NCBI RefSeq assembly: GCF_029894425.1
Contig: NZ_JARXYJ010000001.1
Span: 124,001-188,000 of the forward strand
Direction: 5' to 3'
Length of the DNA stretch: 64,000 nt
From: Streptomyces sp. SAI-127
GTDB taxonomy: Bacteria; Actinomycetota; Actinomycetes; Streptomycetales; Streptomycetaceae
Shown: one piece after another, positions 25,893 through 46,867 of the stretch
Numbering within the stretch: position 1 is the first letter of the stretch
How the letters are laid out: each line of letters starts with the position of its first letter
Made by a program: the position numbers and the translations under genes
The notes under the pieces: generated by a model
The model's input: only the letters and a program-made list of their open reading frames with translations
Databases searched by the model: none
What the model was told of the DNA's origin: nothing

Positions 25893-28724
25893 ATGGATCC
25901 CGCAGTCATCGGCACACGCCTGGCTTCGAGTGTGGTTGCTCCGCTGGTGAAAAAGCTGCTCGTCAAGGAGGAACCGGGCGCCGGGCTGGTCGACAGGCCG
26001 CCCGTGCGGTTATCGGCCCTCGTCTCCTTCCGTGGCCAGAAGCGGACCTTGACCGAGAAGGACGTCCGCGTGCTCGCCGCCCGCCTGGTCCAGGAGGCGG
26101 TGGAGTCGCCGGGAGAGCCGCCCTTTCCTCCTGCCGAGGAGGCAGCGGTCACAGATGCGCTGACGGCCAGGTTACTTGTGCTGGGTGAGCTCGACATGGA
26201 TGACGTGCAGGCGGTACGGCTCGGCTACCGGGAGCTGGCGCGCAAGCTTCACCACCAGGCTCCAACCCGCGACCTGTCCACCGACGCCTCGCTGTTCCTG
26301 GACTCCCTCGCCGAGTGGGCCTGCGTTCACATCATCAACTTCTTCACCCAACGCTCGACCTTCGTGGCCCGCACGCTTGTGGAGCAGAGCCGTGATCAGG
26401 TCGAGCTCCTCGCCAAACTAGACGAGCTGATCACCCGGAATCCACGGCCTGACGCCCGTGACGCCGCCTTCGAGCGACGCTTCCTCTCGTACATCACCAA
26501 GAAGCACGGCCGGTTGCAGATCTACGGCATCGACCTGATCAACTCACCGGGCAGGTGGCCGCTGGACGTGGCTTACATGCGCTTGGAGACCACATCGCCC
26601 GTGGACGCGTATGAGGACTTCCTGCGTCGGCACCCCCGGTACCGGCAGGGGCACCAGCCCGCTGACGAGGCCCTCGCCGACAACGACCGCGTCCTTCTGC
26701 GCGGCGAGGCGGGATCCGGCAAGACCACGCTCATCCAGTGGCTGGCCGTCTCCGCTGCACGCCGGAATCCTGACGACCGCATGGCGTATCTCGCCGGCCT
26801 GATCCCCTTCGTCCTCCCACTGCGCAGCCTGACCCGCCACGGTGGCCATCTCCCCGCCCCAAAGGATTTCCTGACTGCTGTGGGCGCGCCCCTTGCGGGT
26901 GAGGAGCCGCCCGGCTGGCAGTCCCGCGTCCTCACGGCAGGACGCGGACTCCTCCTTATCGACGGCATAGACGAAGTCCCCGAGAGTGAGCGGGCACACG
27001 CACGCGGCTGGCTCGGTGACCTGGCCGAGGCCTACCCGGGCAACCGCTGGCTGGTCACTTCCCGCCCGTCCGCCGTGCCCGAGGAGTGGCTGGCGGCTGA
27101 GGAGTTCGTCGAACTGAGGCTGTCGCCGATGCGCCCTTCGGATGTTCAGTCTTTCGTTGGACGTTGGCATACAGCCGCCCGCACGGGGGCGTCCGAGGAA
27201 GACGAGGTTCTCGCCTGTTACGAGACCCAGCTCCTGCACGCCATCCGTACCAAACCCGATCTGGGGCGACTTGCCACCAACCCGCTGATGTGTGGCCTGA
27301 TTTGCGCCCTGCACCGGGACCGCCACGGCTTCCTGCCGATCGGCCGCAAGGAGCTGTACCAGGCCGCGCTCAGCATGCTCCTCACTCGCCGTGACCGCGA
27401 GCGCGGGGTGACGGGGGCCGAGCTGAGGGAGGAGCCGCAGCTCCAGATCCTCCAGCGGCTCGCTTACTGGTTGATCAAAGACGGCCGTACGGAGGTGACC
27501 CGCGACCGGGCGCTCACCGAGATCGGCAAGGCACTGCCCGCCCTGCCCGAGATAGCGGCCTTGGGCGGGCCCGAGACCGTTCTTACCTACCTGCTCAATC
27601 GCAGCGGTCTGCTGCGCGCCCCGGCTCCTGAGACCATCGACTTCTGCCACCGCACTTTCCAGGACTTCCTGGGTGCGCGTGCCCTCCTGGACGAGGGCAC
27701 GTTCGGTATGGTCCGCAAGCACGCCGCCGACGACCAGTGGGAGGACGTGATCCGCATGGCGGTGGCGCAGGGGCGTCCGCGCGACCGGGCGGACATCCTG
27801 CGCGAGCTATTGCACGACGGGTCGGCCCGGGCCGTGGTGCTGGCCGCATCCTGCCTCGAACAGGCTACGGAACTGGACCCGGCTGTACGGGCCGAACTCG
27901 AACGCAGCATGTCAGCGCTGCTTCCGCCACGTACACCCGAAGCGGTGAGCGAACTCACTTCAGTGGGACCGCTCGCCCTCGGCTTCCTGCCGGGACCGGA
28001 GGAACTGGCCGGCGCGTGGCCTGCCTCGGATAGCGACGAGTATGCCCAGCTGTGCGTTCGGACGGCGTCCCTTATCGGAACCGACGAGGCGATTCCGTAC
28101 TTGGCTCGCTTCAGAAACCATCCATCTGTGAGAGTGCGAGGTCAACTTGCCCTATTTTGGCACCGGTTCGGCATAGAGGCCTATGGCCGGGAAGTCATCG
28201 CTCACCTTTCGTACGGCGACCTCTACCTGATAGCTCACTCCGTGGCAGAGCTTCGTGCCCTCCAACAGCTGGGCGGGCGCCCATGGATGAGGCTGGTGGG
28301 CGACTTCCTGGCCGTCAACCTCCTCGTCTACCTAAATCCGGACCAACTCGCCCGCCTCGACCTGCGCGGCACCGTCGACGACATGTCAGTACTGGGCGAA
28401 TTCCCGCTCTTGGAAGTTGTCTCGGTCTCCGAGTGTCCTGATGACACCTCGCTGGCGAGTCTGCGGGAGCTGCCCAGGTTGCGACAGTTGGGCCTGTCGG
28501 CACGGCACGCCTCCCACGCTGCCCAATCGGGTCTATGCCTACCTCAGGTCCGCCGTCTCGACCTCCACGAAACGGCAACCGAAGCTGCGCTGGAGCCGCT
28601 CCCGCAGGCCTTCCCCACGGTTGAAGCGCTACGCCTGTCCGTCGGCTCGGGCCCAGGTCACCGCATGGACCGTGATCGCCTCCGCGCCCTTTTCCCCCAC
28701 GCGTCGATAAGCGTGACTGAGTAG
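25893..28724 (+). CDS. NACHT-domain NTPase with C-terminal LRR-like region (bacterial NLR-like, candidate antiphage protein)
   Basis: The 943-residue product opens with a helical module (about 1-230, starting MDPAVIGTRLASSVVAPLVK). A NACHT NTPase follows: Walker A GEAGSGKTTL near 270, Walker B GLLLIDGIDEVPESE near 351, then LVTSRPS and later FCHRTFQDFLGARALL. HEAT-like helices occupy about 600-800. The last 130 residues form leucine-rich repeats (LLEVVSVSECPDDTSLASL, then LRQLGLSA). Related bacterial NACHT proteins sense phage infection and trigger abortive defence; that function is inferred here. The gene contains two TTA codons (26010 and 26172), implying control by the bldA tRNA. There is no signal peptide. 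A PemK-like toxin lies 0.8 kb downstream. Confidence 0.88.
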   Translation: MDPAVIGTRLASSVVAPLVKKLLVKEEPGAGLVDRPPVRLSALVSFRGQKRTLTEKDVRVLAARLVQEAVESPGEPPFPPAEEAAVTDALTARLLVLGELDMDDVQAVRLGYRELARKLHHQAPTRDLSTDASLFLDSLAEWACVHIINFFTQRSTFVARTLVEQSRDQVELLAKLDELITRNPRPDARDAAFERRFLSYITKKHGRLQIYGIDLINSPGRWPLDVAYMRLETTSPVDAYEDFLRRHPRYRQGHQPADEALADNDRVLLRGEAGSGKTTLIQWLAVSAARRNPDDRMAYLAGLIPFVLPLRSLTRHGGHLPAPKDFLTAVGAPLAGEEPPGWQSRVLTAGRGLLLIDGIDEVPESERAHARGWLGDLAEAYPGNRWLVTSRPSAVPEEWLAAEEFVELRLSPMRPSDVQSFVGRWHTAARTGASEEDEVLACYETQLLHAIRTKPDLGRLATNPLMCGLICALHRDRHGFLPIGRKELYQAALSMLLTRRDRERGVTGAELREEPQLQILQRLAYWLIKDGRTEVTRDRALTEIGKALPALPEIAALGGPETVLTYLLNRSGLLRAPAPETIDFCHRTFQDFLGARALLDEGTFGMVRKHAADDQWEDVIRMAVAQGRPRDRADILRELLHDGSARAVVLAASCLEQATELDPAVRAELERSMSALLPPRTPEAVSELTSVGPLALGFLPGPEELAGAWPASDSDEYAQLCVRTASLIGTDEAIPYLARFRNHPSVRVRGQLALFWHRFGIEAYGREVIAHLSYGDLYLIAHSVAELRALQQLGGRPWMRLVGDFLAVNLLVYLNPDQLARLDLRGTVDDMSVLGEFPLLEVVSVSECPDDTSLASLRELPRLRQLGLSARHASHAAQSGLCLPQVRRLDLHETATEAALEPLPQAFPTVEALRLSVGSGPGHRMDRDRLRALFPHASISVTE

Positions 28725-32781: not shown

Positions 32782-35370
32782 ATGGCCGACGCATCGCACG
32801 ACAGTCAGGACACAGCCCTCGTCGACACCGTGGTCGTCGGCTCGGGCTTCGGCGGGGCGGTCACCGCGTACCGCCTCGCCGAAGCCGGCCAGTCGGTGGT
32901 GGTGCTGGAGAGGGGCAAGCCGTACCCGCCGGGCGGCTTCCCCCGCAGCCCCGCCGACATGGCCCGCAACTTCTGGGACCCGAGCAACGGCCTGCACGGA
33001 CTGTTCGACATCTGGTCCTTCCGCGGTCTGGAAGGCGTCGTCTCCAGCGGCCTGGGCGGCGGATCCCTCATCTATGCCAACGTCCTGTTGCGCAAGGACG
33101 AACGGTGGTTCGTGAACGAGTCGCCGCTGCCCGGCGGCGGTTACGAGAACTGGCCGGTCGGCCGCGCCGACCTCGACCCGCACTACGACCGGGTGGAGCG
33201 CATGCTCGGCGCCGCCACCTACCCGTACCAGAACACCCCGAAGACACTCGCCCTGCACCAGGCGGCCCGCCGGCTCGACCTGCCGGTGTTCCGGCCGCCC
33301 CTCGCCGTCTCTTTCGCGCCCCGGCCCGGTGCGCCGCCCGTGCCGGGCGCGCAGATCACCGACCCGGACTACGGCAATCTGCACGGCCTGCCCCGCAGCA
33401 CCTGCCGACTGTGCGGCGAGTGCGACATCGGCTGCAACTACGGCTCCAAGAACACCCTCGACCACACCTACCTGTCGGCCGCCCGGCACCACGGCGCCGA
33501 CATCCGCACCCGCTGCGAGGTACGAGGTTTCACGCCCCGTCCCGGCGGCGGCTACGACGTCTCGTACGTCGTGCACGACCCGGCCCGGGAAGGCCGCCGT
33601 ACGGCCACCGACCGGCTGCCCCTGCACCGCATCGGCTGCCGTCGCCTGGTGCTGGCGGCCGGCACCTTCGGCTCGACCTATCTGCTGCTGCGCAACCGGG
33701 CGGCACTGCCCGGCCTCAGCAGCGCGCTGGGCACCCGGTTCTGCGGCAACGGCGACCTGCTTGGGCTGGTGCTGCACGCCACAGCGGGCGCCGACGGGAG
33801 CCGTCCCTTGAAGCTGGACGCCAGCAGGGGACCTGTCATCACGAGCGCCGTGCGCGGCGGCGACGCACTCGACGAGGACGGCTCGTCGGGGCGCGGCTTC
33901 TACATCGAGGACGCCGGCTACCCGGACTTCGTGGCGTGGCTCGCCGAGTCCTCCCGACTGCCGGGCGGCGCCCGCCGCCTTCTCGGGTTCGGACTGCACC
34001 GGCTGCTGGCCCGGCTCGGGGTGGATCCGGCGAGCCGCGTCGGCGGGCAGCTGGCGCTGCTGCTCGGGCCCGCCGTGTTCTCCGCGACCTCCCTGCCCCT
34101 GCTGGGCATGGGGCGGGACGTGCCGGACGGCCGGATGCGGCTGCGCCGCGGCCACCTCGACGTCGACTGGACGACGCTCACCTCACGCGCGTACTTCGAG
34201 CGGGTCCGCTCGACCATGCGGGACATCGCGGGGGCGCTGGGCGGCGACTTCCTCGACAACCCGCTGTGGTGGTGGGGCAACCGCGTGATCACCGTGCACC
34301 CGCTCGGCGGCGCCCCCATGGGCCGTCATCCCGGGGAGGGCGTGTGCGACGACATCGGCGAGGTCTTCGGGTTCCCGGGCCTGCATGTGCTGGACGGGGC
34401 GCTGCTGCCGGGCGCGGTGGGCGCGAACCCCTCCCTGACGATCGCCGCCGTCGCGGACCGGGCCTGCGACCGGATCCTGGAAGGGAAAACGGCGCCGCGT
34501 ACGGCCGGTCGGGCGCCGCACGCGGCCGGCCGGGCCCCGGCGGGACGTACGGCACACCAGGGGCCGGCGGCCGGCGGGACCGCGCCGCGCACACCGGCCG
34601 AAGCCGCCCCGTCGGCCCCCGCGACGCCGGCCACCCACCCTGGACGCGGCCGCTCCGGCACCCCGGCGGGCTCCACCGGTACTCCGTTCGGCTTCACCGG
34701 AGCCCCGGCGGACTCCGCCCACACCCCGCCCGTCGAGCCACCGACCAGCCTCAGCTTCACCGAGGAGATGAAGGGCCATGTCGCCCTCGACGTCGACGAT
34801 CCCGAAGAGGGCCGCGCGCTCGGACGCTCGCTCGGGCAGCGGCTGAACTTCCGGCTCACCATCACCGCTGCCGACGTGGACCGCTTCGTCGCCGAGCCGG
34901 CGCACGCGGCGGACGCCGCCGGCCACGTCGACTGCGACATCCTCGGCGGACGGCTGGAGGTGGAGCACGGCTGGTTCAACCTCTTCACCCAGGACGGCGA
35001 CGCGGGCCGACGGCGCATGCTGTACAGGCTCCACCTGCGCACGCAGGAGGGCACTCCGCTCACCCTCACCGGGCACAAGGACGTCCACGACGACCCCGGC
35101 GCCGACGTCTGGCCCGACACCTCCACCCTCTACGTCCGCCTGCTCGCCGGGCACACCCACCCCGACGACGACGCCACCGCGCCCGTCATCGGCGCCGGGA
35201 TCGTCATCATCCGGATCGGTGACTTCCTCCAGCAGCTGACCACCTTCCGCACCACCGGCCCACACCCGGCGCGGGCGATGGAGCTCTTCGGCAAGCTGTT
35301 CCTGGGCGAACTGTGGGCCGTCTACGGCGGACGCCTGGCACGCGCCGTACCCGGGAAGGACAGGCCGTGA
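32782..35370 (+). CDS. GMC-family (cholesterol-oxidase-like) FAD oxidoreductase with C-terminal accessory domain
   Basis: The roughly 862-residue product has an FAD-binding VVVGSGFGGAVTAYRLAEAG at its N-terminus, GLGGGSLIYANVL, a Cys-rich RLCGECDIGCNYGSK segment and the C-terminal GMC motif HPLGGAPMG with GALLPGAVGANPSLTI. It resembles the cholesterol oxidase/GMC group that oxidises sterol or alcohol groups using O2. A Pro/Ala-rich linker (about 575-655) joins a further domain of some 190 residues starting FTEEMKGHVAL and containing GHVDCDILGGRLEVEHG. ATG 32782 is chosen with AGGGAG upstream. It is the first gene of a tightly overlapping operon. Confidence 0.9.
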   Translation: MADASHDSQDTALVDTVVVGSGFGGAVTAYRLAEAGQSVVVLERGKPYPPGGFPRSPADMARNFWDPSNGLHGLFDIWSFRGLEGVVSSGLGGGSLIYANVLLRKDERWFVNESPLPGGGYENWPVGRADLDPHYDRVERMLGAATYPYQNTPKTLALHQAARRLDLPVFRPPLAVSFAPRPGAPPVPGAQITDPDYGNLHGLPRSTCRLCGECDIGCNYGSKNTLDHTYLSAARHHGADIRTRCEVRGFTPRPGGGYDVSYVVHDPAREGRRTATDRLPLHRIGCRRLVLAAGTFGSTYLLLRNRAALPGLSSALGTRFCGNGDLLGLVLHATAGADGSRPLKLDASRGPVITSAVRGGDALDEDGSSGRGFYIEDAGYPDFVAWLAESSRLPGGARRLLGFGLHRLLARLGVDPASRVGGQLALLLGPAVFSATSLPLLGMGRDVPDGRMRLRRGHLDVDWTTLTSRAYFERVRSTMRDIAGALGGDFLDNPLWWWGNRVITVHPLGGAPMGRHPGEGVCDDIGEVFGFPGLHVLDGALLPGAVGANPSLTIAAVADRACDRILEGKTAPRTAGRAPHAAGRAPAGRTAHQGPAAGGTAPRTPAEAAPSAPATPATHPGRGRSGTPAGSTGTPFGFTGAPADSAHTPPVEPPTSLSFTEEMKGHVALDVDDPEEGRALGRSLGQRLNFRLTITAADVDRFVAEPAHAADAAGHVDCDILGGRLEVEHGWFNLFTQDGDAGRRRMLYRLHLRTQEGTPLTLTGHKDVHDDPGADVWPDTSTLYVRLLAGHTHPDDDATAPVIGAGIVIIRIGDFLQQLTTFRTTGPHPARAMELFGKLFLGELWAVYGGRLARAVPGKDRP

Positions 35371-37283
35371 ACCTCAAGCACCTGCGCGCCCACGCCAAGG
35401 AGCTCGACTTCACCCCGTGCGAGCCGGTGCGCTGGCTGGACCCGGCCTCCCTCGTACGGACCGGCGTCAAGGTCGCACTGGCCGACGTGTTCGCCGCGTA
35501 CGCAGACAAGCGGGAGATCCAGGGCACGCTCAGGGCCGAGCCCCTGCGGGCCCCGCTCGACGACCCGGACGCGCGCGAGATGTGGATCGACTACGTCGCC
35601 GACCTCGGTGACGGATTCGACGCCACCGCGTCGGTGGCCGGGTCCCTCGCCGCCCCCGGCCTCACCGTCCGCCGTGAGCGGCTGCCGCGCGGCTCGCTGC
35701 TCGTGCTCGGCGGCGACGAGACCTACCCGGTGGCCTCGATGAAGCTCTACCGCGACAGCATGACCGGCCCCTACGCCTCGGCCCTGCCGAGCACCGAGGG
35801 CGCTCCGCCGCTGATGCTGGCGTTGCCGGGCAACCACGACTGGTACGACGGCCTCACCGCGTTCCTGCGCACCTTCGCCCTGCGCCAGCCCGTCGGCGGC
35901 TGGCAGACCCGGCAGACCCGCAGCTACTTCGCCGTACGACTGCCGTGCAAGTGGTGGCTGGTCGGCCTCGACAGCCAGCTCGGCGCCTACCTGGACGACC
36001 CCCAACTGCGCTACTTCCAGAACCACCTGTCGGCCCGTCTGCGACCGGGCGACGGAGTGATCGTCTGCTGCGCCGAACCCACCTGGGTCAAGTGTGCCGA
36101 CGACGCCGACGCCTTCGACACGCTGCACTGGTTCGACCGCGCCGTAATCCGCACCCGCACCGACCCGCGCACCGGCGAGCCGGTGCCCACCGGCGCGTCG
36201 ATCCGGCTGTGGCTGACCGGCGACAAACACCACTACACCCGCTACGCCGAGCGCCTGCCCACGGATCCGCCCGAGCGCGAAGACCTCCCCCCGGATCCCC
36301 GGCGCCGGCAGATGGTGACGTGCGGTCTCGGCGGCGCCTACCTGGCGTCGACCCACACCCTGCCCCGCAGCCTGTCGCTGCCACCGGCGGGGACCCAGCT
36401 GCGGGAGAAGGACAACCCCGCGGTGACCTTCACGCGCGCCGACGAGAGCACCTACCCCGAGGTCCGGGAGTCCCGTCGGCTCGCCCGCCGGATCGCGGCG
36501 CCGTGGTCCCCGTACTGGCTGCCCCGGCGCAACCCCGGCTTCTGCCGGCTCACCGCGGCCGTGCACACCGCCGCCTTCGTCGTTCTCGGCTTCCTGTTCG
36601 CAGTGGCGCGGGACCAGCTCCAGCCCGTCGACGCCGTACGGCACGGGAGCGCCGCGGACCTGGGCCTGTTCACCGCAGTGACCGGCGGTGTCCTGGTGGT
36701 GCTGTGGGGTCTCCTGCGCCGGACCTGGCGCCCGCGCCCGGCCAAACCCCGGGCAGCCGACGCCGTACTTCTTCAGGCCCTGGTGGCGCTGGGAGCTCTC
36801 GCCGTCACCGTCGCGCTGCCGTTCCCCGCGCACTGGCCCGGCTGGGCGGTGCTGCTGGTCTGTCTCGCGGTCGCCGCGGTGCTGGGCGCGGTGGCCGGCT
36901 CGCAGGCCTTCGCCCTGTGGGTGCTGTCGGCACGCGGCGGCGCCGTCGCCGACTGGCAGATGTCCGGCCAGGCCGTCGAGGACCACAAAGGCTTCCTGCG
37001 TCTGCACATCGCGCCGAACGGCGACCTCACCCTGCACGCCCTGGTGCTCGACGGGATCTGCCGCCGGTGGAACCTGGCCGACGCACCGGGCGGCCGGAAA
37101 CGCGTGGTGCCCGCCGAGCCCCTCACCGTACGGCTGATCGAGGACCCCGTCGTGATCGCCCGGGAGGCGAAACGCCATGACCGCACGCCCCCAACCGAAC
37201 CCGCGCGGCCACGGCAGCAGCGGCCCCCGGACCGGGACCGGCGTCGTCCGGCGCACGCCCACGCGCCCCACGACCCGCCGTGA
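35367..37283 (+). CDS. membrane-anchored metallophosphoesterase
   Basis: The 638-residue product has calcineurin-like motifs spread over residues 90-300: ADLGDGFDAT, LGGDETYP, LPGNHDWYDG and LTGDKHHYTRY. Together they supply the metal-binding Asp, Asn and His residues. Three or four hydrophobic helices lie between about 390 and 530 (AAFVVLGFLFAVA, LVALGALAVTVALPF, AVLLVCLAVAAVLGAVAG). The GTG overlaps the GMC stop (GTGA). The last 35 residues are Arg/Pro-rich and overlap the next gene by 107 bp, which suggests that an original stop was lost. It probably cleaves a phospho- or pyrophospholipid headgroup; this is inference. Confidence 0.85.
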   Translation: MNLKHLRAHAKELDFTPCEPVRWLDPASLVRTGVKVALADVFAAYADKREIQGTLRAEPLRAPLDDPDAREMWIDYVADLGDGFDATASVAGSLAAPGLTVRRERLPRGSLLVLGGDETYPVASMKLYRDSMTGPYASALPSTEGAPPLMLALPGNHDWYDGLTAFLRTFALRQPVGGWQTRQTRSYFAVRLPCKWWLVGLDSQLGAYLDDPQLRYFQNHLSARLRPGDGVIVCCAEPTWVKCADDADAFDTLHWFDRAVIRTRTDPRTGEPVPTGASIRLWLTGDKHHYTRYAERLPTDPPEREDLPPDPRRRQMVTCGLGGAYLASTHTLPRSLSLPPAGTQLREKDNPAVTFTRADESTYPEVRESRRLARRIAAPWSPYWLPRRNPGFCRLTAAVHTAAFVVLGFLFAVARDQLQPVDAVRHGSAADLGLFTAVTGGVLVVLWGLLRRTWRPRPAKPRAADAVLLQALVALGALAVTVALPFPAHWPGWAVLLVCLAVAAVLGAVAGSQAFALWVLSARGGAVADWQMSGQAVEDHKGFLRLHIAPNGDLTLHALVLDGICRRWNLADAPGGRKRVVPAEPLTVRLIEDPVVIAREAKRHDRTPPTEPARPRQQRPPDRDRRRPAHAHAPHDPP

Positions 37284-38301
37284 CCACATCACCGAGGTGC
37301 GGCCCCTCACCGCCCGCGACGGCCGGCCGCTGACCGTCGTCCATGTGCAAGGCCGGCATCCGCCGACCCGTGGGCCGGTGCTGGTCGTGCACGGCGCGGG
37401 CGTACGGGCCGAACTCTTCCGGCCGCCGCTGCCCAGGACCTTCGTCGACGCCCTCATCGACGCCGGCTGGGACGTGTGGCTGCTCAACTGGCGGGCCTCC
37501 GTCGACCTGGACCCGATGCCCTGGACCCTCGACCAGGCCGCCGCCCACGACCATCCGGCCGCCGTCGAGCATGTCCTCGCCGCCACCGGCGCGGACCGGC
37601 TCAAGGCGGTCGTGCACTGCCAGGGCTCGACGTCGTTCGTGATGGCCGCCGCGGCCGGGCTGCTGCCCCAGGTGGACACCGTGGTCAGCAACGCCGTCTC
37701 GCTGCATCCCGTCGTGCCCGCCGTGTCCCGGTTCAAGATCAGCAAGGTGGCACCGGTCGTCGGCCGCGTCCTGCCGCAACTCTCACCGGCCTGGGGCGAC
37801 CGGCCCGAGGGCTTCGCCGCCCGCTGCGTCGCCGGCTTCGTCCGCGCCACCCACCGGGAGTGCCGCAACGGCGTCTGCCGCATGGTCAGCTTCACCTACG
37901 GCTCCGGACGGCCGGCCCTGTGGTCCCACACGAACCTCGACGAAGCCACCCACGACTGGATCCGCGGCGAATTCGCCGACGTCCCCATGACCTTCTTCGC
38001 ACAGATGGACGCCTGTCTGCGCGCCGGCCATCTCGTGACCACCGGCGAGGTCGAGGGCCTGCCGCCGTCCTTCACCGACCAGGCACCGCAGACCGACGCC
38101 CGCTTCGCGCTGTTCGCCGGCGAGGACAACCGCTGCTTCCTCGCCGAGAGCCAGCGCCGCACCTTCGACTTCCTGCACCGTCACCGCCCCGGCCGCGACA
38201 GCCTGCACATCCTGCCCGGATACGGCCACCTGGACGTCTTCCTGGGCCGCCGCGCGGCGACCGACACCTATCCGCTAATCCTGGAGGAGCTGGCGCGATG
38301 A
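37177..38301 (+). CDS. alpha/beta hydrolase with Cys at the nucleophile position (PhaC/lipase-like)
   Basis: The 374-residue alpha/beta hydrolase has an oxyanion segment VVHGAGVRAELF. Its elbow is VHCQGSTS, in which Cys replaces the usual Ser, as in polyhydroxyalkanoate synthases. FAGEDNRCF carries the acid and GYGHLDVF the His. WLLNWRAS also resembles PhaC relatives. The first 35 residues are disordered and overlap the phosphoesterase gene, so the true start may be later than ATG 37177, though no better start is evident. The gene is coupled to the next by ATGA. An acyl transfer or lipid hydrolysis role fits the neighbours. Confidence 0.8.
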   Translation: MTARPQPNPRGHGSSGPRTGTGVVRRTPTRPTTRRDHITEVRPLTARDGRPLTVVHVQGRHPPTRGPVLVVHGAGVRAELFRPPLPRTFVDALIDAGWDVWLLNWRASVDLDPMPWTLDQAAAHDHPAAVEHVLAATGADRLKAVVHCQGSTSFVMAAAAGLLPQVDTVVSNAVSLHPVVPAVSRFKISKVAPVVGRVLPQLSPAWGDRPEGFAARCVAGFVRATHRECRNGVCRMVSFTYGSGRPALWSHTNLDEATHDWIRGEFADVPMTFFAQMDACLRAGHLVTTGEVEGLPPSFTDQAPQTDARFALFAGEDNRCFLAESQRRTFDFLHRHRPGRDSLHILPGYGHLDVFLGRRAATDTYPLILEELAR

Positions 38302-39227
38302 ATCCCGCACTGGGCCTGGCCCGGCTGGTCCTGTCCGCGACACCGTCCCCGGTCCCGCGCCGGCAGCGACGACTTGCCGGACGGCACGCTCTCGTCGACG
38401 GCATCCCGTTCGTGCTGCCGGTGGATTCCACCGACACGCCCGCGCTGATGGCCGCGTTCCCTGTCGACCGCGGGGCGGCGGCCCGGCTGCTGCCCGGCGG
38501 CGAGCTGCACCCGCTGGCGATCCCCGGCGGCCGCGGTCTGCTCGTCGTCACCGTCGTCGACTACGCCCGCACCGACATCGGCCGCTACATCGAGTTCTCC
38601 GTGGCCATCGCCTGCACCCACGGCTCCCGGCCCGCGCCGCCGCTGCTGCCCGGGCTGCTGCGCGGCAGCTTCGGCACCGGCCAGTACGTCGTGGACCTTC
38701 CGGTGAGCAGCGAGATCTCGGTCAAGGGCGGCAAGGGCATCTGGGGCATGCCGAAACACCGGGCCAGCCTCGACTTCCAGGTGAGCGACCGGGCCGTCTC
38801 GAGCCAGTACGAGGACGACGGCCGGCTGGGCATGCTCATCGAGGTCGAGCGCCCGCCCGAGACGCGGCTGCCGCTGCGGGTGGCCGCGGTCAACTACTGC
38901 GCTTTCCGGGGCATGCTGATGAAGTCGTCCATCTACTTCGAAGGCGCCGCCGACATCGCCCTGGGCAGGCGGGCCCGCGCCCGTCTCGTCCTCGGCGACG
39001 CCCCCGGAGCCGCCGCACTGCACGGCCTCGGGATCGCCGAACAGCCGCTGTTCACCTGCTTCCTGCCGTCGACCCGGGGCATCCTCGACGACCACTTCGA
39101 ATCCTGGTTCCTCACGGCTGAGGAGGCCGGGCGCACGTTCGGCGAACCACTCCAGAGCGTCGTCGGCCTGGGCCTGTCGGAGGAGTGGCCCGCACCACCG
39201 CAGATCGACGTGGGAGCCCGGCCATGA
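38298..39227 (+). CDS. acetoacetate decarboxylase-like protein
   Basis: The 309-residue product belongs to the acetoacetate decarboxylase-like (ADC) superfamily. It has PFVLPVDSTDTPALMAAFPV, YIEFSVAIAC, then SVKGGKGIWGMPKHRASLDF, where a Lys expected to form the Schiff base lies. Many ADC-like proteins in actinobacteria have unknown reactions. The ATG overlaps the previous stop (ATGA) and its own stop overlaps the next gene, so it is an integral operon member. Decarboxylation or retro-aldol chemistry on an oxidised lipid is possible but unproven. Confidence 0.8.
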   Translation: MNPALGLARLVLSATPSPVPRRQRRLAGRHALVDGIPFVLPVDSTDTPALMAAFPVDRGAAARLLPGGELHPLAIPGGRGLLVVTVVDYARTDIGRYIEFSVAIACTHGSRPAPPLLPGLLRGSFGTGQYVVDLPVSSEISVKGGKGIWGMPKHRASLDFQVSDRAVSSQYEDDGRLGMLIEVERPPETRLPLRVAAVNYCAFRGMLMKSSIYFEGAADIALGRRARARLVLGDAPGAAALHGLGIAEQPLFTCFLPSTRGILDDHFESWFLTAEEAGRTFGEPLQSVVGLGLSEEWPAPPQIDVGARP

Positions 39228-39706
39228 ACACCTTGCTGCTGGTGAACGCGCTGTACTTCCTCTTCGGCGCCACGATGTACATGGGCACCATGTGGGTGCT
39301 GCGTCTCTTCCTGTATCCCACCTGGCGTGCGCTGACTCCCGAGAACGTCGACGTGCACTTCGGCGTGCCCACGACGCTGGCGACCCGGTTCTTCACGGTC
39401 GTCGTACCGCTGATGTTCATCTCCGGCATCGTGCTGGTGTGGAGCGAGTGGGGCAGTTGGTACGTCGTGCTGGCGGCCGTCTGCCTGGTCGGTATCGCGC
39501 TGCTCACCTGGGTCGGGCAGGGGATCATCATCCCGGTCAACAAGCGGATCCGGGGCGGCCAGTTCGACGGCCAGGCCGGCCTCACCCCGCTGCTGGGGCG
39601 GTGGATGCGGCTCAACGACATTCGGTTCGTCGGTGCCACGGTGACCTGGGCGGCGATCGTCTGGTACATCGCGGCCAAGGGGGATCTGTGGGGTGCCCTC
39701 TCATGA
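39224..39706 (+). CDS. four-helix integral membrane protein (DUF1772/DUF2269-like)
   Basis: The 160-residue protein has four predicted membrane helices: residues 5-25, 55-75, 80-100 and 137-155. A conserved-looking MYMGTMWVLRLFLYPTWRAL loop follows helix 1 and HFGVPTTLATRFFT precedes helix 2. The arrangement recalls DUF1772 (anthrone-oxygenase-like) or DUF2269 membrane proteins, though the family cannot be fixed by eye. It is coupled by ATGA to genes on both sides and probably works at the membrane with the GMC enzyme or decarboxylase. Confidence 0.7.
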   Translation: MNTLLLVNALYFLFGATMYMGTMWVLRLFLYPTWRALTPENVDVHFGVPTTLATRFFTVVVPLMFISGIVLVWSEWGSWYVVLAAVCLVGIALLTWVGQGIIIPVNKRIRGGQFDGQAGLTPLLGRWMRLNDIRFVGATVTWAAIVWYIAAKGDLWGALS

Positions 39707-40164
39707 CCCCGCTCCCAGCACGGGTGAGCGGTGACCCGCTCCGGCTGGTCCTCCTGGCCATCGCCGCGGTGACGGTGGTGACCGGGGCGTGCCAGATGGT
39801 GGCCCCCGGCCCCGTGCTGGAGCTGCTCTCCACGGACTCGGCCCGCTCCTCGTCCCTGAGCCGGCATCTCTTCGCGACCGTCGGAATGTTCATGATCGTC
39901 ATTGGTGGGCTGCTCGCCCAGCAGCTGCTGTCCCCGGGGGCGCCGTCCTTCCCGCTGCTGTGGGTGGGGCTACAGAAGTTCGGCGCGTTCGCCCTGGTGA
40001 CGGCTGGGGTGGCGCGGGACCTGTTCACCGGCCTGGCACTGCTCGTGGCGCTGTTCGACCTGGCCACGGCGGGGCTGTGCTGGCTGCTGTGGCGCCGGCC
40101 GCCCCGCCCGGCCGAGTCCCGCGTCGCCGCGGACGCCGATACGGCAGGGCCCGGGATCCGGTGA
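39703..40164 (+). CDS. small integral membrane protein of the lipid cluster
   Basis: The 153-residue protein has three to four hydrophobic helices (LVLLAIAAVTVVTGACQMV, FATVGMFMIVIGGLLAQQL, ALLVALFDLATAGLCWLLW) and a short charged tail. It resembles the small DoxX/DUF4149-like proteins but I cannot name the family. It overlaps the preceding membrane gene by four bases. A TnpB element begins 25 bp after its stop and separates it from the patatin gene, which has the same orientation. Confidence 0.65.
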   Translation: MTPLPARVSGDPLRLVLLAIAAVTVVTGACQMVAPGPVLELLSTDSARSSSLSRHLFATVGMFMIVIGGLLAQQLLSPGAPSFPLLWVGLQKFGAFALVTAGVARDLFTGLALLVALFDLATAGLCWLLWRRPPRPAESRVAADADTAGPGIR

Positions 40165-40169
40165 GGCGG

Positions 40170-40330
40170 TGATCGGCGTTGACTTCCTCCCCCGCCTAAA
40201 GGCGGGGGGTTCCAGCGGTCGCCCGCTGGGGTTCCTGTTTCACCGACGACTGCCCCGTCCGGGAGGACTCCCGTTGAGGTCTTACACCGTCTCCACAGGC
40301 AGACGCCGCCAGCCCGGCGGCCAGAATGTT
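40170..40330 (-). ncRNA. predicted omega (guide) RNA region of the TnpB element
   Basis: In IS200/IS605 elements the guide RNA spans the 3' end of tnpB and the right end of the element. Here that region includes a perfect 8-bp hairpin (40189-40208) overlapping the tnpB stop, followed on the minus strand by AGGAAGTCAA. The guide would begin in the host sequence at about 40180 reading leftwards. Placement is inferred from the family. Confidence 0.4.
40189..40208. repeat. TnpB element end hairpin (CCCCCGCC-TAAA-GGCGGGGG)
   Basis: A perfect 8-bp stem with loop TAAA (TTTA on the minus strand) lies over the tnpB stop codon, next to CTTCCTCC. A second hairpin with the same loop and flank but a compensated stem lies at 41525-41544. 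Such subterminal hairpins are recognised during single-strand transposition of IS200/IS605 elements. Confidence 0.75.
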
Positions 40331-41404
40331 ACGTGCCGCGTTCACGTCGCGGTCATGCACCGCGCCGCAGACGCACGTCCATTCGCGGACGTTCAGCGGC
40401 AGCTTCGCCGCGACCGTCCCGCAGGTTCCGCACAGCTTGCTGCTGGGGAAGAAGCGGTCGATCACGACGAGTTCACGCCCGTACCAGGCGCACTTGTACT
40501 CCAGCAGGGAGCGCAGTTGCGTCCAGGCCGCGTCACTGATGGCGCGTGCGAGCGTGCCGTTCTTCAGCAGGTTGCGGACGGTCAGGTCCTCGATCACGAC
40601 CGTTTGGTTCTCACGGACGAGTCGAGTCGACAGCTTGTGCAGAAAGTCACGGCGCCGGTCGGCGATCCGCGCATGCACGCGGGCGACGCGACGACGGGCT
40701 TTCTCCCGGTTCGCCGAGCCCTTCGCCTTGCGCGACAGCTCACGCTGCGCTCGCGCCAGGCGCGCGCGGTCCCGCCGCTCGTGCTTGGGGTTGGCGACCT
40801 TTTCCCCGGTGGACAGCGTCACCAGGGACGTGATCCCGGCGTCCAGGCCGACGGCCGCTGTGGTGGCGGGGGCCGGGGCGATGCTGTCCTCGCACAGCAG
40901 GGACACGAACCAGCGTCCCGCCGCGTCCCGGGACACGGTCACCGTCGTGGGCTCACCACCGTCCGGCAGCGGACGCGACCAGCGGACGTCCAAGGGCTTG
41001 GCCATCTTCGCCAAAGTCAGGTGCCCGTCGCGCCACGTGAAGGCGCTGCGGGTGTACTCGGCCGACGCCCGGGACTTCTTGCGGGACTTGTAGCGCGGGT
41101 ACTTCGCACGCTTGGCGAAGAAGTTCCCGAACGCCGTCTGAAGATGACGCAGCGCCTGCTGCAACGGAACCGAGGACACCTCCGCCAGAAACGCCAGCTC
41201 TCCGGTCTTCTTCCACTGCGTGAGCGCGGCCGAGGACTGCACATAGGAGATCCGGCGCTGCTCGCCGAACCAGGCCCGGGTGCGATCCTCCAGCGCCTTG
41301 TTGTAGACGAGGCGGACACAGCCGAACGTGCGCGACAACTCAGCCGCCTGCTCGTCCGTGGGGTAAAAGCGGTACCTGAACGCCCGCTTGACCTGCTCCG
41401 CCAT
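40196..41404 (-). CDS. tnpB: TnpB RNA-guided nuclease (IS200/IS605 orfB)
   Basis: The 402-residue protein has the N-terminal YRFYPTDEQ segment and RuvC residues Asp188 (VGLDAGI), Glu272 (VIEDLTV) and Asp353 (HDRDVNAARN). A zinc ribbon has Cys pairs near 325/328 and 344/346. All catalytic residues are present, so it may be active as an RNA-guided DNA nuclease. No tnpA transposase gene is nearby, so movement would need a transposase in trans. It lies opposite to the surrounding operon and separates the patatin gene from its upstream partners. The start is clear; upstream sequence on the minus strand is non-coding until 41525. Confidence 0.93.
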   Translation of the reverse strand: MAEQVKRAFRYRFYPTDEQAAELSRTFGCVRLVYNKALEDRTRAWFGEQRRISYVQSSAALTQWKKTGELAFLAEVSSVPLQQALRHLQTAFGNFFAKRAKYPRYKSRKKSRASAEYTRSAFTWRDGHLTLAKMAKPLDVRWSRPLPDGGEPTTVTVSRDAAGRWFVSLLCEDSIAPAPATTAAVGLDAGITSLVTLSTGEKVANPKHERRDRARLARAQRELSRKAKGSANREKARRRVARVHARIADRRRDFLHKLSTRLVRENQTVVIEDLTVRNLLKNGTLARAISDAAWTQLRSLLEYKCAWYGRELVVIDRFFPSSKLCGTCGTVAAKLPLNVREWTCVCGAVHDRDVNAARNILAAGLAASACGDGVRPQRESSRTGQSSVKQEPQRATAGTPRL

Positions 41405-41524
41405 ACCTCACAACCTATCAATTCCCGGGTGAGCAACGGATGTCGATCCATGGACGGTGGACGCCGGTCCGCCCTGGCGGCGAACCGGCTTCCCCTGCCC
41501 TGCTCCGCAGGAGCTTCGCTTCCT

Positions 41525-41544
41525 CCCCGGCCTAAAGGCCGGGG
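41525..41544. repeat. TnpB element end hairpin (CCCCGGCC-TAAA-GGCCGGGG)
   Basis: This is a perfect 8-bp stem with the same loop and the same CTTCCTCC flank as the hairpin at 40189-40208. At stem position 5 both strands changed together (C-G to G-C). It marks the other side of the element, 22 bp before the patatin start. Confidence 0.7.
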
Positions 41545-41565
41545 TATCCACGAAGGACAGACCCG

Positions 41566-42912
41566 ATGAAACGGTCGTTGGTCCTGGCGGGCGGCGGGAT
41601 GCGGGTGGCCTGGCAGACCGGCGTGGTCCGGGCACTCGACGAGTACGGCACGGAGTTCGACCACGTCGACGGCACCTCCGGCGGGATCCTCACCACCGGC
41701 ATGCTGCTGTCCGGCCAGGACCCGGCGGAAATGAGCCGGCGCTGGTCCGACCTGCGCGTTCGTGACTTCAACTCGCCGCTGCCGCTGTCGGACTACCTGC
41801 GCGGGCCCTGGGCGCTGCCCGCGCTCGGCGACGCGGACGGGGTGATCCACCGCGTCTTCCCCGCGCTCGGCATCGACCCGGACGCCATCCGCTCCTCGCC
41901 GCTGCCCGGTACCTTCAACCTGGTCGACTTCGCCACCAAGACCTGCGTCGCCGTACCGCACACCGAGGTCGACGCGGAACTGCTGGCCGCGGGCATGTCG
42001 CTGCCGCTGTTCATGCCACCGCTGCATCGCGACGAGCACATCTGGACCGACGCCGTATGGGTCCAGGACGCCAATGTTGGGGAGGCCCTGCGCCGCGGCG
42101 CCGACGAGGTCTGGCTGGCCTGGTGCATCGGAAACACGCCGTACTGGGGCGACGGACCGCTCGAACAGTACGTCCACATGATCGAGATGTCCGCGAACGG
42201 GGCGCTGTTCGCCGAACTGGCCACCGCGTCCCGGCCGTTCACGCTGCATGTGGTCAAACCGGAGTACCCGCTGCCACTGGACCCCGAGTTCTTCGCAGGA
42301 CACGTCACCGCCGACACCCTGATGGAGATGGGCTACCGCGACGCCTGGCACTACCTCGACGGCGCCGGCCCGGAGGGCGTGCCGAAGGACTCCGAATGTA
42401 CGGCGATGCGGGTTCCCCCGCGCGGCATGCGGTACCGGGAGCGCCTGCACGGCGAACTCGACGGCGCCGACCTCGTGCTGGAGGCCGCCGTCGACCTGCC
42501 GCTGCCCGACGACGACGCCCCGTCACCCGGAGCCCGGCTGGTCGGACACATCGACCACGACCCGTGGGGCGGCCGGGTGCTGCTGGCCGACGGTCGCGCG
42601 GAGGCGGACGGCAGCGCGCTCACCTACACGGCCCGGGTGCGCCTGGCGGGTCGGTGGCACGAGGTCCGGGCCCGCCGCGCACCGGCCGACGCGACGGTAC
42701 CGGCCCTGTGGACCCGGACCGGGCCCGTGCCCTTCCGGATCGCCGACGGCAAGGACGTCACACTCGAGCTGGGCCTGCGCGACGCGGCACACGCACTGGC
42801 CTCCGTGACCCCCTTCGGCACGCACGGCATCCGCGACCGCGCCGACACCGTCACCGAACTGGCCGACATCCCACTGCGCAGAACGGTGACGGGCGCGCAG
42901 GGCACCCGCTGA
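41566..42912 (+). CDS. patatin-like phospholipase with C-terminal accessory domain
   Basis: The 448-residue product starts with the patatin oxyanion loop LVLAGGGMR and has the nucleophile elbow VDGTSGG (Ser38). The catalytic Asp is probably in WTDAVWVQD, where the usual DGG/DGA is replaced by DAV, a notable deviation. The last 180 residues form another domain containing RERLHGELDGADLVLEAAV, GHIDHDPWGGRVLLADG and YTARVRLAGRWHEVRARR. These segments look homologous to the C-terminal domain of the GMC oxidoreductase at the other end of the cluster. AAGGA precedes the ATG. The TnpB insertion lies directly upstream, so expression may have been altered. Confidence 0.88.
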   Translation: MKRSLVLAGGGMRVAWQTGVVRALDEYGTEFDHVDGTSGGILTTGMLLSGQDPAEMSRRWSDLRVRDFNSPLPLSDYLRGPWALPALGDADGVIHRVFPALGIDPDAIRSSPLPGTFNLVDFATKTCVAVPHTEVDAELLAAGMSLPLFMPPLHRDEHIWTDAVWVQDANVGEALRRGADEVWLAWCIGNTPYWGDGPLEQYVHMIEMSANGALFAELATASRPFTLHVVKPEYPLPLDPEFFAGHVTADTLMEMGYRDAWHYLDGAGPEGVPKDSECTAMRVPPRGMRYRERLHGELDGADLVLEAAVDLPLPDDDAPSPGARLVGHIDHDPWGGRVLLADGRAEADGSALTYTARVRLAGRWHEVRARRAPADATVPALWTRTGPVPFRIADGKDVTLELGLRDAAHALASVTPFGTHGIRDRADTVTELADIPLRRTVTGAQGTR

Positions 42913-42973: not shown

Positions 42974-45900
42974 TCATCTTCCGCGATGGCTGTTCAGCGC
43001 CCGCTTTGCCATCCGCTCCCAGAACAGCCTCAGTTCGGCGAGGTCCGTGCCCCGTTGCCAGCGCGCCTCGGGTCTCGCGAGGGATCGCCACCGCGACCGT
43101 GACAGCAGGGTCAACTGGCCCCGGCAGAAGGCCTCGGACAGCTCTGGGCGGTAGCCGTCCAGCCCCGAGGGAGGATAGGGACACAGCTCGAAGGCACAGT
43201 CGTCGCGGCAGTTGGAGCCGGCGTGGGCGGCGGCCGTACGCACCAGGGAGCGGCCCGGGTCGAGAGGGCGGCGGTCCTTGGTCAGGCACGGCGGCAGCTC
43301 CGGCCGGGCAGTGCGGTGCAGGCGCCGCAGCCGGTCCTTGGGCCAGTCGCCGCGGCCGGCGAGGTTGAGCAGCAACATGACGTCGGCGAGGAGTTGCTGG
43401 GCGCGCGGATGCAGGGTGCTCCAGCCGGTGGAGGGCGGAATCCACAGCTGGTGCTTGCGCACCTCCCCGTCCCCGGCCGTCTGGGAACCGACGTGCGCGG
43501 ACACACCGGACTCGTCGATCCACAGGAACCGATCGGGCCGACGGGTCCTCAGGGCCCAGACACACAGCTCGGCGGCGGCCTCGACGAAGGGATGCTGCGG
43601 CGTGCCGTCGGGCAGCGCGAGCCACTGACGTACCTGTTCCGCCGGGTCGAAGCCGTGATCCTCGGGGCCCGGGGCCGCACTCGCGCCGTCGGGCAGCTCC
43701 CACAGCGTCAGCGCGTGCAGCAGCGTGACGCGGGTGAACCAGAACCGGGAGCGTCTGAGCATGTCCCAGGCCTGTTCGCTGAGGTACTCGCGGGCCTGGG
43801 GACGGGCGTGCGGATGGCGGGCACGGCGGTTGGCCGCGTACTTGAAGCCCTGGGCGAGGGCGATCTCCAGGGTGAGGTCCAGGCCGGAGCCGTCGTCGTT
43901 CTCGTCGGAGGCCCTGACCCGCCGCACCCAGCTCTCCAGGATCTCGTACGGGGTGTCGTGGTGGCGGCGTGTGGTGACGGAGCCCACGAGCAGGGGGATC
44001 AGCCAGGCGCACAGCACATTGTCCCGCCACTTGTGTTCCTCCTCCTCACGTTCCTCCTCCTCTCGCCTGCGCAGCCGCGCGATGTCGTCCTGCGTGCCGT
44101 CGGGTCCATCGGGTCCGGGGCTTCGCTGCCACTCGGGCCTGTCGTCCCACAGGTCCACCAGCCACTCCGGTCTGCGTCCCAACGGCTGTTCACGGATGAT
44201 CTGAGGACCGCGCAGCCGTGGCTCGAGCACGTCGAAGGCGCTGTCGCCGCCCGCGCCGATCTCCTGCGCGATGGCGACCCGTACGTCGTGCGACGGCTCC
44301 TGGCGCCCGATCTCGAAGAGTTCCGGATACGCGGGCTGAAAGGAGTTGCGGCGGGCGACGCTGCGCACGGCCTCACCGAAGCGGGAGACCAGAAGCGCCT
44401 TGGCCACGCGCAGCGTGTACGGGTCGCGTGCCCGCAGGTCCGACCACGACGTCGTCAGTTCCATGGCGATTCGGTGCTGCTGCGGGTCCGCGGCTACGCC
44501 GTCGATCTCGAGGGCGGCGGCGTACAGCTCGAGCGCCTTGGTGTGCAGGGTGCGACCGAAGACGTGCCGCGGATCGACCGCCCCCTCGGGGCGCCCGGCG
44601 TCCTGGGCGCCGTTGGCGCCCTCGTGGCCGGTGACGCCCTGGTGGCCGGTGACGGCTGACTGTGCCCGGCATGCCGCGCGCAGCAGGAGGTCCCGCGCCG
44701 AGGCCACCGGGCACCAGGTGCGGTCGCCCGCGGGGGACGCCGGGTGCGCGCAGGAGCCCTCCGGCGTACGGGAGTAGAGCACCAGTGCGATCAGCAGTTC
44801 GCGACCCGGGCTCTCCAGCGCCGCCGGGAAGTACGAGCCCTCCGTGGGCTCTTCGGGCACGTGCGGATGGATCACCGCGTTCATGAACCGGGCACCCAGA
44901 TGGGCCTGGATCACGCTGTGCTGGAACCGCACGCGGTCCCCTTCGAGTTCGACCAGGCCCATACGGGTGCCCCAGTGTGCGGCCAGGCGGATGTCCATCC
45001 GGCTTGCCTGGGCACGCTTGGCCAGCTCCCGGACGATCTCCGGGAAGCGGGACCCCGCCGGATCGTGTTCGTCGACCACTTCGGTGATACGGATCTCGGC
45101 CGCGTCGTCTGCCAGCGCCGCGCACGCCAGCGCCGACAGGTAGTCCAGCACCACCCTGCGTTCGTCCTGGCCGAGCGGCAGTTGCGGGGACAGTCTTCCG
45201 GCGACGAGGGCGCTCAGCCACGTGTCGAGCAGGTGCAGGCGCAACGCCGCCCGGTCGCCGCCGCGTGTCTCCACGCCCTCCTCGAACCGACCGGTGAGGG
45301 CGCGTACCAGCAGGCCCTCCTCGTGCAAGTCGCTCGCGACCTGCAGATAGGTCGGGGCCTCGGCGATCCCCGCCTTCTCGACGATCCAGTCGAGCCGCTG
45401 CCGGTCCTCCCAGGCGGTGCCGGAGGAGATGTAGGCGAGGGCCGCCTCCTCGCTGAGCGGTTCCAGATCGGTCAGTGAGGCGTCCAGGCCACGCAGCGCG
45501 TCGTGCGGGCGCGAGGTGATGATGAGCGGCAGGCGCTCCTCGTTGGCACGGCGGATCGCCAGCCGGATGACCGTGTCGCGCTCCTCCTCCTGGTCGTCCT
45601 CCGTCAGGGCGTCCTCGAGGCCGTCCGCCAGGACCACGATGCGGCCCTGCTGGCACAGCCGCTGCCACACCTTCTCCGCTTCGCCCTCGGATCGGATGTG
45701 CTCCTGCACCTCTCGCTTGAAGCGGTCGTAGGCCAGCTGCCGAAAGTCCAGATCGCTCCCCGCGCTGCGCAGCCGCAGCGGGACGGGCACCGCCTTGCGC
45801 TGTGCCAGCCGCTCCGTGAGAAGCACGAGCAGCGCGGTCTTGCCCGCACCGATGCCGCCGACCACCACATGGGTGCGACGGAATCGGCTGTCCCTCAGAT

Positions 45901-46327
45901 CCTCCATGAGCACGTCGCACAACTGGTCCCGGCCGACCACCCGCCCGAAGATGCCGCCCGCCGTCTCCACCAGATCCAGTGGTGCTTCCCGGGCCTTCCT
46001 GAGGTACGCCCCGCTCACCTGCCGGAAGCGGAAGAACAGGTACGTGAAGGTGGCCAGGGCCAGGGTGAGCAGGGGCGTGAGGACGCCGGACAGGACGTCG
46101 CAGGCCTGCTCGTTGTTCCGGCACCGGCTCTCCACTTCACCGAGGGCCCAGTGCGCCCCGCCCAGTTCGGCCGCGGCCACGCCGACCAGGAACAGCTCGG
46201 CGAGCGCGCCCAGCACGGTCAGGGCGAGGACCGGGTAGTACCAGCGGCTCTTGCGGACCCGCCAGGTACGGGCCGGCTCGGAGCCCCGACGGGCCAGTTG
46301 GGAGGAGGACGTCCGGCGGAGGTTCAC
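42974..46327 (-). CDS. membrane-anchored STAND/NACHT-like P-loop NTPase
   Basis: The roughly 1117-residue protein has two N-terminal membrane helices (YYPVLALTVLGALAELFLVG and VLTPLLTLALATFTYLFF). An NTPase follows with Walker A VVGGIGAGKTALL and a Walker B-like segment RIVVLADGLEDALTEDD, in which the usual hydrophobic-D-D/E is modified, then IITSRPHDALRGL. A long helical repeat region fills the C-terminal 600 residues, with a very acidic stretch (RRREEEEREEEEHK) near 840. Family start sites vary; GTG 46327 is used because upstream codons are Arg-rich nonsense, but its ribosome site is weak. Such proteins often sense stress or infection. No effector domain is recognisable. Confidence 0.75.
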   Translation of the reverse strand: MNLRRTSSSQLARRGSEPARTWRVRKSRWYYPVLALTVLGALAELFLVGVAAAELGGAHWALGEVESRCRNNEQACDVLSGVLTPLLTLALATFTYLFFRFRQVSGAYLRKAREAPLDLVETAGGIFGRVVGRDQLCDVLMEDLRDSRFRRTHVVVGGIGAGKTALLVLLTERLAQRKAVPVPLRLRSAGSDLDFRQLAYDRFKREVQEHIRSEGEAEKVWQRLCQQGRIVVLADGLEDALTEDDQEEERDTVIRLAIRRANEERLPLIITSRPHDALRGLDASLTDLEPLSEEAALAYISSGTAWEDRQRLDWIVEKAGIAEAPTYLQVASDLHEEGLLVRALTGRFEEGVETRGGDRAALRLHLLDTWLSALVAGRLSPQLPLGQDERRVVLDYLSALACAALADDAAEIRITEVVDEHDPAGSRFPEIVRELAKRAQASRMDIRLAAHWGTRMGLVELEGDRVRFQHSVIQAHLGARFMNAVIHPHVPEEPTEGSYFPAALESPGRELLIALVLYSRTPEGSCAHPASPAGDRTWCPVASARDLLLRAACRAQSAVTGHQGVTGHEGANGAQDAGRPEGAVDPRHVFGRTLHTKALELYAAALEIDGVAADPQQHRIAMELTTSWSDLRARDPYTLRVAKALLVSRFGEAVRSVARRNSFQPAYPELFEIGRQEPSHDVRVAIAQEIGAGGDSAFDVLEPRLRGPQIIREQPLGRRPEWLVDLWDDRPEWQRSPGPDGPDGTQDDIARLRRREEEEREEEEHKWRDNVLCAWLIPLLVGSVTTRRHHDTPYEILESWVRRVRASDENDDGSGLDLTLEIALAQGFKYAANRRARHPHARPQAREYLSEQAWDMLRRSRFWFTRVTLLHALTLWELPDGASAAPGPEDHGFDPAEQVRQWLALPDGTPQHPFVEAAAELCVWALRTRRPDRFLWIDESGVSAHVGSQTAGDGEVRKHQLWIPPSTGWSTLHPRAQQLLADVMLLLNLAGRGDWPKDRLRRLHRTARPELPPCLTKDRRPLDPGRSLVRTAAAHAGSNCRDDCAFELCPYPPSGLDGYRPELSEAFCRGQLTLLSRSRWRSLARPEARWQRGTDLAELRLFWERMAKRALNSHRGR

Positions 46328-46448
46328 GTCAGGTGAGGTTCCATGCGGAACTCCCGGAGATTCCCTCCCGGCCAGGGGTTTCGTCCTCCGCCGACCGACT
46401 TTCACCCGCCCGGACCAGCGAACCGGGGGGCGCCTGGCGGCCCGCCGC

Positions 46449-46600
46449 TCACAGCAACCCCGCACCGGCCAGGTACTTTCCCACCCGCTCCACCTCCTCC
46501 GCCGACAGCGGCACCTGAGGCTCCGTCGTCGCCGGACAGGCGATGACCCCCCGCAGATGCAGCGCCGCCTTGAATGCGCCCATCGCCGATGAACGGCCAC
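46449..46600 (-). pseudogene. C-terminal fragment of a DapA/dihydrodipicolinate-synthase-family gene
   Basis: The minus-strand frame ending at 46449 reads MGAFKAALHLRG and PLSAEEVERVGKYLAGAGLL, the last helices of DapA-type aldolases. Nothing upstream matches; plus-strand fragments start there instead. It is a remnant of about 45 residues. Confidence 0.6.
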
Positions 46601-46612
46601 CCATCCGCTCGG

Positions 46613-46867
46613 ATGGCAGCTTCGTACGACTTCCCCCAGGACCTGACCGACGCTCAGGACAAACTCCATCGGGTCCGTGCCGATCTGCAGACGCTCTTCC
46701 GGCGGATGCCGTGGTCGGTCGAACTGCTGAAAGCGTGGGAGAGGCACGAGAACGCCTGGCGGCCGTCGTCGTCCCGACCCGCCTCCCCTGGCTGGGAACC
46801 TCAGGACGCGGCGGAGATCGCCCGGCTTCGGGCGCGGGAAGTCGAACTCGCCACGGCAATCGTCATC
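46613..46867 (+). pseudogene. N-terminal fragment of a small conserved actinobacterial protein
   Basis: ATG 46613 opens MAASYDFPQDLTDAQDKLHR, continuing with RRMPWSVELLKAWE and AAEIARLRAREVELATAIV. This layout recalls a conserved hypothetical protein of about 130 residues common in Streptomyces. After about 85 residues the sequence joins an IS701 fragment, so the end is lost. Function unknown. Confidence 0.5.

Follow-up and report, generated by a model that had tools for sequence, protein, structure and literature searches.

In the FAD glucose dehydrogenase of Burkholderia, Cys212, Cys218 and Cys222 are the ligands of a [3Fe-4S] cluster, and a hitchhiker gamma subunit and a multihaem cytochrome c are partners of this enzyme (PMC6719666). 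Lysosomal and gastric acid lipases have a Ser-His-Asp triad. Proteins that can be compared with both are encoded in one operon within the DNA analyzed here, a stretch of 64,000 nucleotides from Streptomyces sp. SAI-127 (the window), which begins 124 kb from the start of contig 1 in a genome assembly of 10.7 Mb and three contigs. The seven genes encode an FAD oxidoreductase of the GMC family (GMC), a metallophosphoesterase (MPE), an alpha/beta hydrolase (ABH), an acetoacetate-decarboxylase-like protein (ADC), two small hydrophobic proteins (MEM1 and MEM2) and a patatin (PAT). A TnpB element separates the last two genes, and GMC and PAT share a barrel domain (DOM). The seven-gene unit and the sharing of this domain are established computationally. 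The enzymes come from known superfamilies; word matching in open-access full texts found no paper on this assembly, on the barrel or on the altered catalytic residues, and the available portions of PMC9045290, PMC13066512 and PMC3973600 do not describe the assembly.

Conservation of the seven-gene unit

A genome collection was scanned with MPE, giving at least 545 confirmed relatives; the best 80 were kept and correspond to 79 loci. Together with one locus from the relatives search (L092) and the window, these make up 81 MPE loci, which were annotated with iterated profiles. All seven genes are present on one strand and in one order in 20 of the 81 loci, which occur in Streptomyces, Arthrobacter, Paenarthrobacter, Glutamicibacter, Cellulomonas, Microbacterium and another member of the Microbacteriaceae. 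Among these 20, GMC is truncated by a contig end in L065 and the patatin is split over two open reading frames in L041. Partial sets were found in ten loci (five GMC-PAT-MPE, three GMC-MPE-ABH and two GMC-MPE-ABH-ADC); these counts are lower bounds, because the fetched flanks were often shortened by contig ends. ABH is divergent in L039 and L040, and the “GMC” counted for the 4.8-kb locus L092 is merely the barrel carried by a patatin.

The initial annotation had described six overlapping genes followed, beyond a TnpB element of about 1.4 kb, by a patatin gene in the same direction, and had named unlinked homologous loci or a patatin that is never adjacent as evidence against an operon. The positions and strands of the open reading frames agree with this description. 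From GMC to MEM2 the successive overlaps are 4, 107, 4, 4 and 4 bases. The 107-base overlap between MPE and ABH hinges on ABH starting at the ATG at 37177; the in-frame start closest to the MPE stop in the window is a GTG 13 bases past that stop, and 17 of the 20 seven-gene loci show a 4-base overlap at this junction. PAT directly follows MEM2 in all of these loci except the window (19/20): the two genes overlap by 4 bases in 17 loci and by 1 base in L041, and are separated by a 14-base gap in Streptomyces torulosus, compared with 1401 bases in the window. The patatin is a member of the operon. Moreover, protein distances between loci, taken pairwise, correlate among the seven genes (r 0.82-0.97; 18 loci, with L041 and L065 excluded from the 20).

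The linkage is not universal. In 51 of the 81 loci MPE stands alone, with none of the other six genes in the fetched flanks, many of them cut by contig ends, and in 4 of 20 regions GMC-DOM is found without ABH or MPE. Both observations would fit an accidental or loosely linked neighbourhood, an explanation to which we attach hardly any credence in view of the gene order kept over several genera, the coupled overlaps, the cross-phylum fusions described below and the correlated protein distances. Since MPE occurs so often without the operon, it has a role of its own. MPE genes without the operon include those of L019, L022, L025 and L037; in Micromonosporaceae, such genes often have the same chromosomal neighbours. 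Across 61 genomes, 37 of which belong to the window's genus (window included), a strong MPE match was seen only in the window genome and one congener, and a weak one in 12 others. In Streptomyces sp. MA5143a (L018, from 10840 onward) the operon breaks off a few codons into MEM1, apparently through a rearrangement close to the contig end.

Table 1. Coordinates of the operon, its predicted motifs and domains, and the inserted element (positions in the window).
Feature	Position	Strand	Description
GMC	32782-35370	+	FAD oxidoreductase of GMC family, 862 aa, barrel domain at C-terminus
C-x5-C-x3-C motif	33403-33435	+	predicted [3Fe-4S] ligands, inside GMC
DOM	34747-35331	+	beta-barrel domain of about 195 aa, C-terminal part of GMC; undescribed
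MPE	35367-37283	+	metallophosphoesterase, 638 aa
ABH	37177-38301	+	alpha/beta hydrolase with acid-lipase fold
ABH triad	Cys 37618, Asn 38128, His 38227	+	predicted Cys-His-Asn
ADC	38298-39227	+	acetoacetate-decarboxylase-like protein
MEM1	39224-39706	+	small hydrophobic protein
MEM2	39703-40164	+	small hydrophobic protein
TnpB-only insertion	40176-41562	-	IS200/IS605 type, 1387 bp; either end may shift slightly (few bases)
TnpB coding sequence	40196-41404	-	opposite strand, between MEM2 and PAT
PAT	41566-42912	+	patatin-like phospholipase with divergent barrel at C-terminus
Distant DOM copy	42424-42852	+	on patatin; hhalign against GMC domain profile

The predicted dehydrogenase and the other enzymes

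Family scans placed GMC, ADC, patatin and TnpB above curated cut-offs. For GMC, both Pfam domains (GMC_oxred_N and GMC_oxred_C) were detected and the catalytic pair His (34297) and Asn (34426) is invariant in 16 aligned GMC sequences, confirming its family. The protein resembles the FAD glucose dehydrogenase of Burkholderia cepacia (PDB 6a2u) in its GMC scaffold, its His/Asn pair and the spacing of its C-x5-C-x3-C motif, which is present in 50 of the 51 GMC sequences checked, that of the window included (the exception is L152). A profile search gives a match to it over residues 2-226 (E 8.6e-12), with the Cys motif matching at the level of spacing. Unlike the glucose dehydrogenase, the window GMC has the barrel as an additional domain and by eye lacks a signal peptide, and none of the seven operon proteins, the only ones scanned, has a Pfam match to a hitchhiker gamma subunit or multihaem cytochrome c.

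The nearest PDB sequence of GMC is that of a cholesterol oxidase (E 2e-38), followed by FAD glucose dehydrogenase (E 2e-16), and GMC shares the HPLGG and GxNP motifs of the former; profile positions 317-488 are unaligned in this comparison, which leaves the sterol pocket outside it. However, GMC reaches 200 bits with the NCBIfam cholesterol oxidase equivalog NF058674, far below the cut-off of 850, and we rejected its membership of that family. Because its C-x5-C-x3-C motif is spaced like the [3Fe-4S] ligands in FAD glucose dehydrogenase, GMC is, judged from its sequence, more likely an electron-transferring dehydrogenase with a predicted [3Fe-4S] cluster than a cholesterol oxidase.

These results bear on the possibility that the operon serves the catabolism of sterols or steroid esters, in which ABH or PAT would split a sterol ester and GMC would oxidise the 3-hydroxyl as cholesterol oxidase does. 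We consider this distinctly improbable. The aligned motif region of cholesterol oxidases contains no Cys in printed alignments, and KstD, the sole steroid marker used, scored above its cut-off in no more than two genomes, those of the window and S. torulosus, out of 18 (14 carry the seven-gene form and four have partial sets). Below the threshold, four genomes (G350, G351, G354 and G361) have full-length relatives scoring more than 400 bits, three have partial ones (116-273 bits), and nine, six of them with the seven-gene form, have fragmentary matches only. A KstD-linked steroid pathway was therefore rejected as a general role, although the window genome itself does have KstD. The suggestion of the initial annotation, that a membrane lipid or sterol may be remodelled or degraded, is supported in part: the lipid-type kinds of enzyme stand, and by this one marker a steroid-ring role in general looks unlikely.

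ABH, initially annotated as a PhaC-like hydrolase, instead has the predicted fold of lysosomal and gastric acid lipases, with Cys (Cys148) in place of Ser and Asn in place of Asp at the presumed catalytic-acid column. The Cys, His and Asn columns are kept in 30 of 30 aligned sequences, and the Cys in all 45 that were checked (38 by motif and 7 by alignment). An acid lipase with such a triad, Cys-His-Asn, would be useful for understanding how catalytic triads evolve. The turnover of polyhydroxyalkanoate (PHA) or another hydroxy-acid polyester would be compatible with the Cys nucleophile that PHA synthases share with ABH, with weak PhaC profile matches and a PHA synthase among the PDB sequence matches of ABH, and with the phaC and phaE genes annotated upstream of one fusion described below. 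This function is nevertheless very improbable: in both structure and sequence ABH is less similar to PhaC than to acid lipases, and its scores with the PHA synthase models TIGR01836 and TIGR01838 (19.6 and 15.4 bits) are far below the cut-offs of 365 and 623. The identification of ABH as PhaC was rejected.

The patatin (Pfam Patatin, E 2e-22, 80.7 bits versus a cut-off of 27.7) has an invariant dyad in 17 aligned sequences, formed by Ser 41677 of G(T/A)SGG and Asp168 (42067). ADC likewise matches its Pfam family (E 6.3e-16, 59.1 bits versus 29.8), so that both names given initially hold; at E 0.1 it has no match among PDB sequences. Its Lys (38754) within GMPKH is invariant in 15 sequences, not including a solved ADC, and may correspond to the Schiff-base Lys115. 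Over 19 aligned relatives of MPE the GNHDWYDG motif is invariant and GDxHH nearly so, and the C-terminus has hydrophobic segments that, by eye, are probably membrane segments; on the other hand, MPE has no Pfam match above cut-off, and its only match to a solved structure by sequence has an E of 0.82. MEM1 and MEM2 show weak similarity to Anthrone_oxy (24.3 bits versus a cut-off of 27.3) and DUF4345 (17.2 versus 26.5), respectively.

A shared barrel domain and the proposed function

The window DOM matched nothing in Pfam at E 1 or among PDB sequences at E 10. Its AF2 model (pLDDT 86.5, pTM 0.84) gave a weak and mixed Foldseek list that contains 3c5o and 3g7g (unknown function), retinol-binding proteins, designed barrels, fluorescent proteins and MppR, which has the ADC fold. 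A kinship with the closed antiparallel barrels of avidin/lipocalin type is no more than possible. The barrel of the window patatin aligns with the GMC domain profile over 104 columns (hhalign probability 96.3, E 1.8e-9). The domain is carried by GMC in the window, by patatin in other Streptomyces and by a lipase in Nocardioides, and three other phyla have it in single-chain fusions, placed between the GMC and lipase parts. It is also present on an acyl carrier protein (ACP)-thioester reductase adjoining a polyketide synthase (hhalign of three such sequences, probability 95.6, E 1.2e-8). The barrel may be a ligand binder or substrate holder; holding or passing on a substrate would explain its presence on GMC, lipase, patatin and thioester reductase.

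Upstream of the Rhizobium GMC-barrel-ABH fusion (L134, 1-7198) are phaC, phaE, an alcohol dehydrogenase gene and a CoA-transferase gene. A phosphoesterase precedes both the Variovorax fusion, where it passes the Pfam cut-off, and the Persicobacter fusion, where it is under that cut-off and was read from its motifs; by phmmer, these two match neither each other nor the MPE family of the window.

Based on the gene unit, the domain sharing, the predicted folds and the motifs, all shown computationally, we see an even chance that the operon encodes a multi-enzyme system acting on a single hydrophobic substrate, which is held by the barrel and undergoes deacylation, dephosphorylation, oxidation and perhaps decarboxylation. 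The kinds of enzyme are well supported; the substrate class, the order of steps, ligand binding by the barrel and the direction, be it catabolic or biosynthetic, are inferred. The system would be intracellular and partly membrane-bound, and its substrate acylated. The patatin and the Cys-nucleophile ABH would cleave or transfer acyl groups, MPE would take phosphate off at the membrane, and GMC would oxidise the freed hydroxyl, passing electrons from FAD via the [3Fe-4S] cluster to an acceptor. The resulting keto acid might be decarboxylated by the Lys of ADC, or undergo related Schiff-base chemistry, while the common barrel would hold or hand over the substrate. Hydrolases, a phosphatase, a dehydrogenase and a decarboxylase acting on one barrel-carried ligand would explain the operon, the fusions and the swaps most simply, and this reading predicts the same lipidome change for several mutants. 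More tentatively, these proteins could represent a new class of lipid-processing machine in at least four phyla, in which a [3Fe-4S] GMC dehydrogenase and a Cys-His-Asn enzyme of acid-lipase fold exchange one hydrophobic ligand by way of a portable barrel, itself swappable onto patatin or thioester reductase. Should the barrel serve as a substrate carrier in all these proteins, a common lipid pathway would extend over Actinomycetota, Pseudomonadota, Spirochaetota and Bacteroidota.

The same enzymes might instead make or tailor an oxidised or polyketide-type lipid, which we regard as unlikely but worth weighing. In L156 (3-9342), from the window's genus, a polyketide synthase is followed by the ACP-thioester reductase with DOM and a Cys-type ABH (Pfam), and the DOM and ABH pair recurs in two further genomes of the genus (L157 and L126). 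Genes for an animal haem peroxidase lie beside ABH-ADC-PAT in L139 (985-3159) and L141 (14275-16818) and near the Nocardioides locus L040 (2-1063). These links leave room for a biosynthetic or oxylipin-like role. However, a search restricted to the peroxidase found no relative of the L139 protein in the flanks fetched for the seven-gene loci, whose other flank genes were not family-scanned, and breakdown fits the phosphatase, lipase and decarboxylase activities equally well.

The TnpB insertion and the surrounding genes

The limits of the insertion were obtained by pairwise alignment with S. torulosus, whose locus represents the empty site. TnpB scores 366 bits with NCBIfam NF040570 (cut-off 100) and 389 bits with the narrower NF038281, below its cut-off of 425. 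No TnpA was seen within the 1387 bp. The element resembles other TnpB-only IS200/IS605 elements in its TnpB family and in having a CCTAAAGG-type hairpin close to each end, and differs only in its position at a start codon: in the alignment it ends three bases ahead of the patatin ATG, although the ends may move by a few bases. Because AAGGA precedes this ATG in the last bases of the element, the insertion may provide the patatin with a new ribosome-binding site. If the ATG marks the end of the element (region 40176-41570), the - strand reads TTTCAT in its 5' flank, the reverse complement of ATGAAA; a TTCAT-like target would account for insertion at the start codon. Decay of the patatin after insertion was rejected, as its dN/dS between the window and S. 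torulosus is 0.387, versus 0.275-0.441 for the other six genes. Two Rfam matches, both under their gathering scores, may be due to chance; one is a weak HgcC match at the 3' end of TnpB (40166-40275, - strand), possibly a guide RNA.

A consensus promoter scan, weakly informative in a high-GC genome, found nothing. With the anti-phage models of PADLOC, four scanned operon proteins gave nothing notable, the only match being one of 19.7 bits to the FAD domain of GMC. The operon region is flanked by NACHT ATPases at 25728-28724 (+) and 42974-46747 (-), of the NNH1+NACHT and NACHT/nSTAND1 types, which are possible defence-type STAND proteins; PADLOC gave a single weak match for them. Finally, two genes whose locus tags are neighbours, for an alpha/beta fold hydrolase and a cholesterol oxidase, are listed in PMC13066512 as down-regulated in Leptospira interrogans; this pair may be of the same kind as that of the operon.
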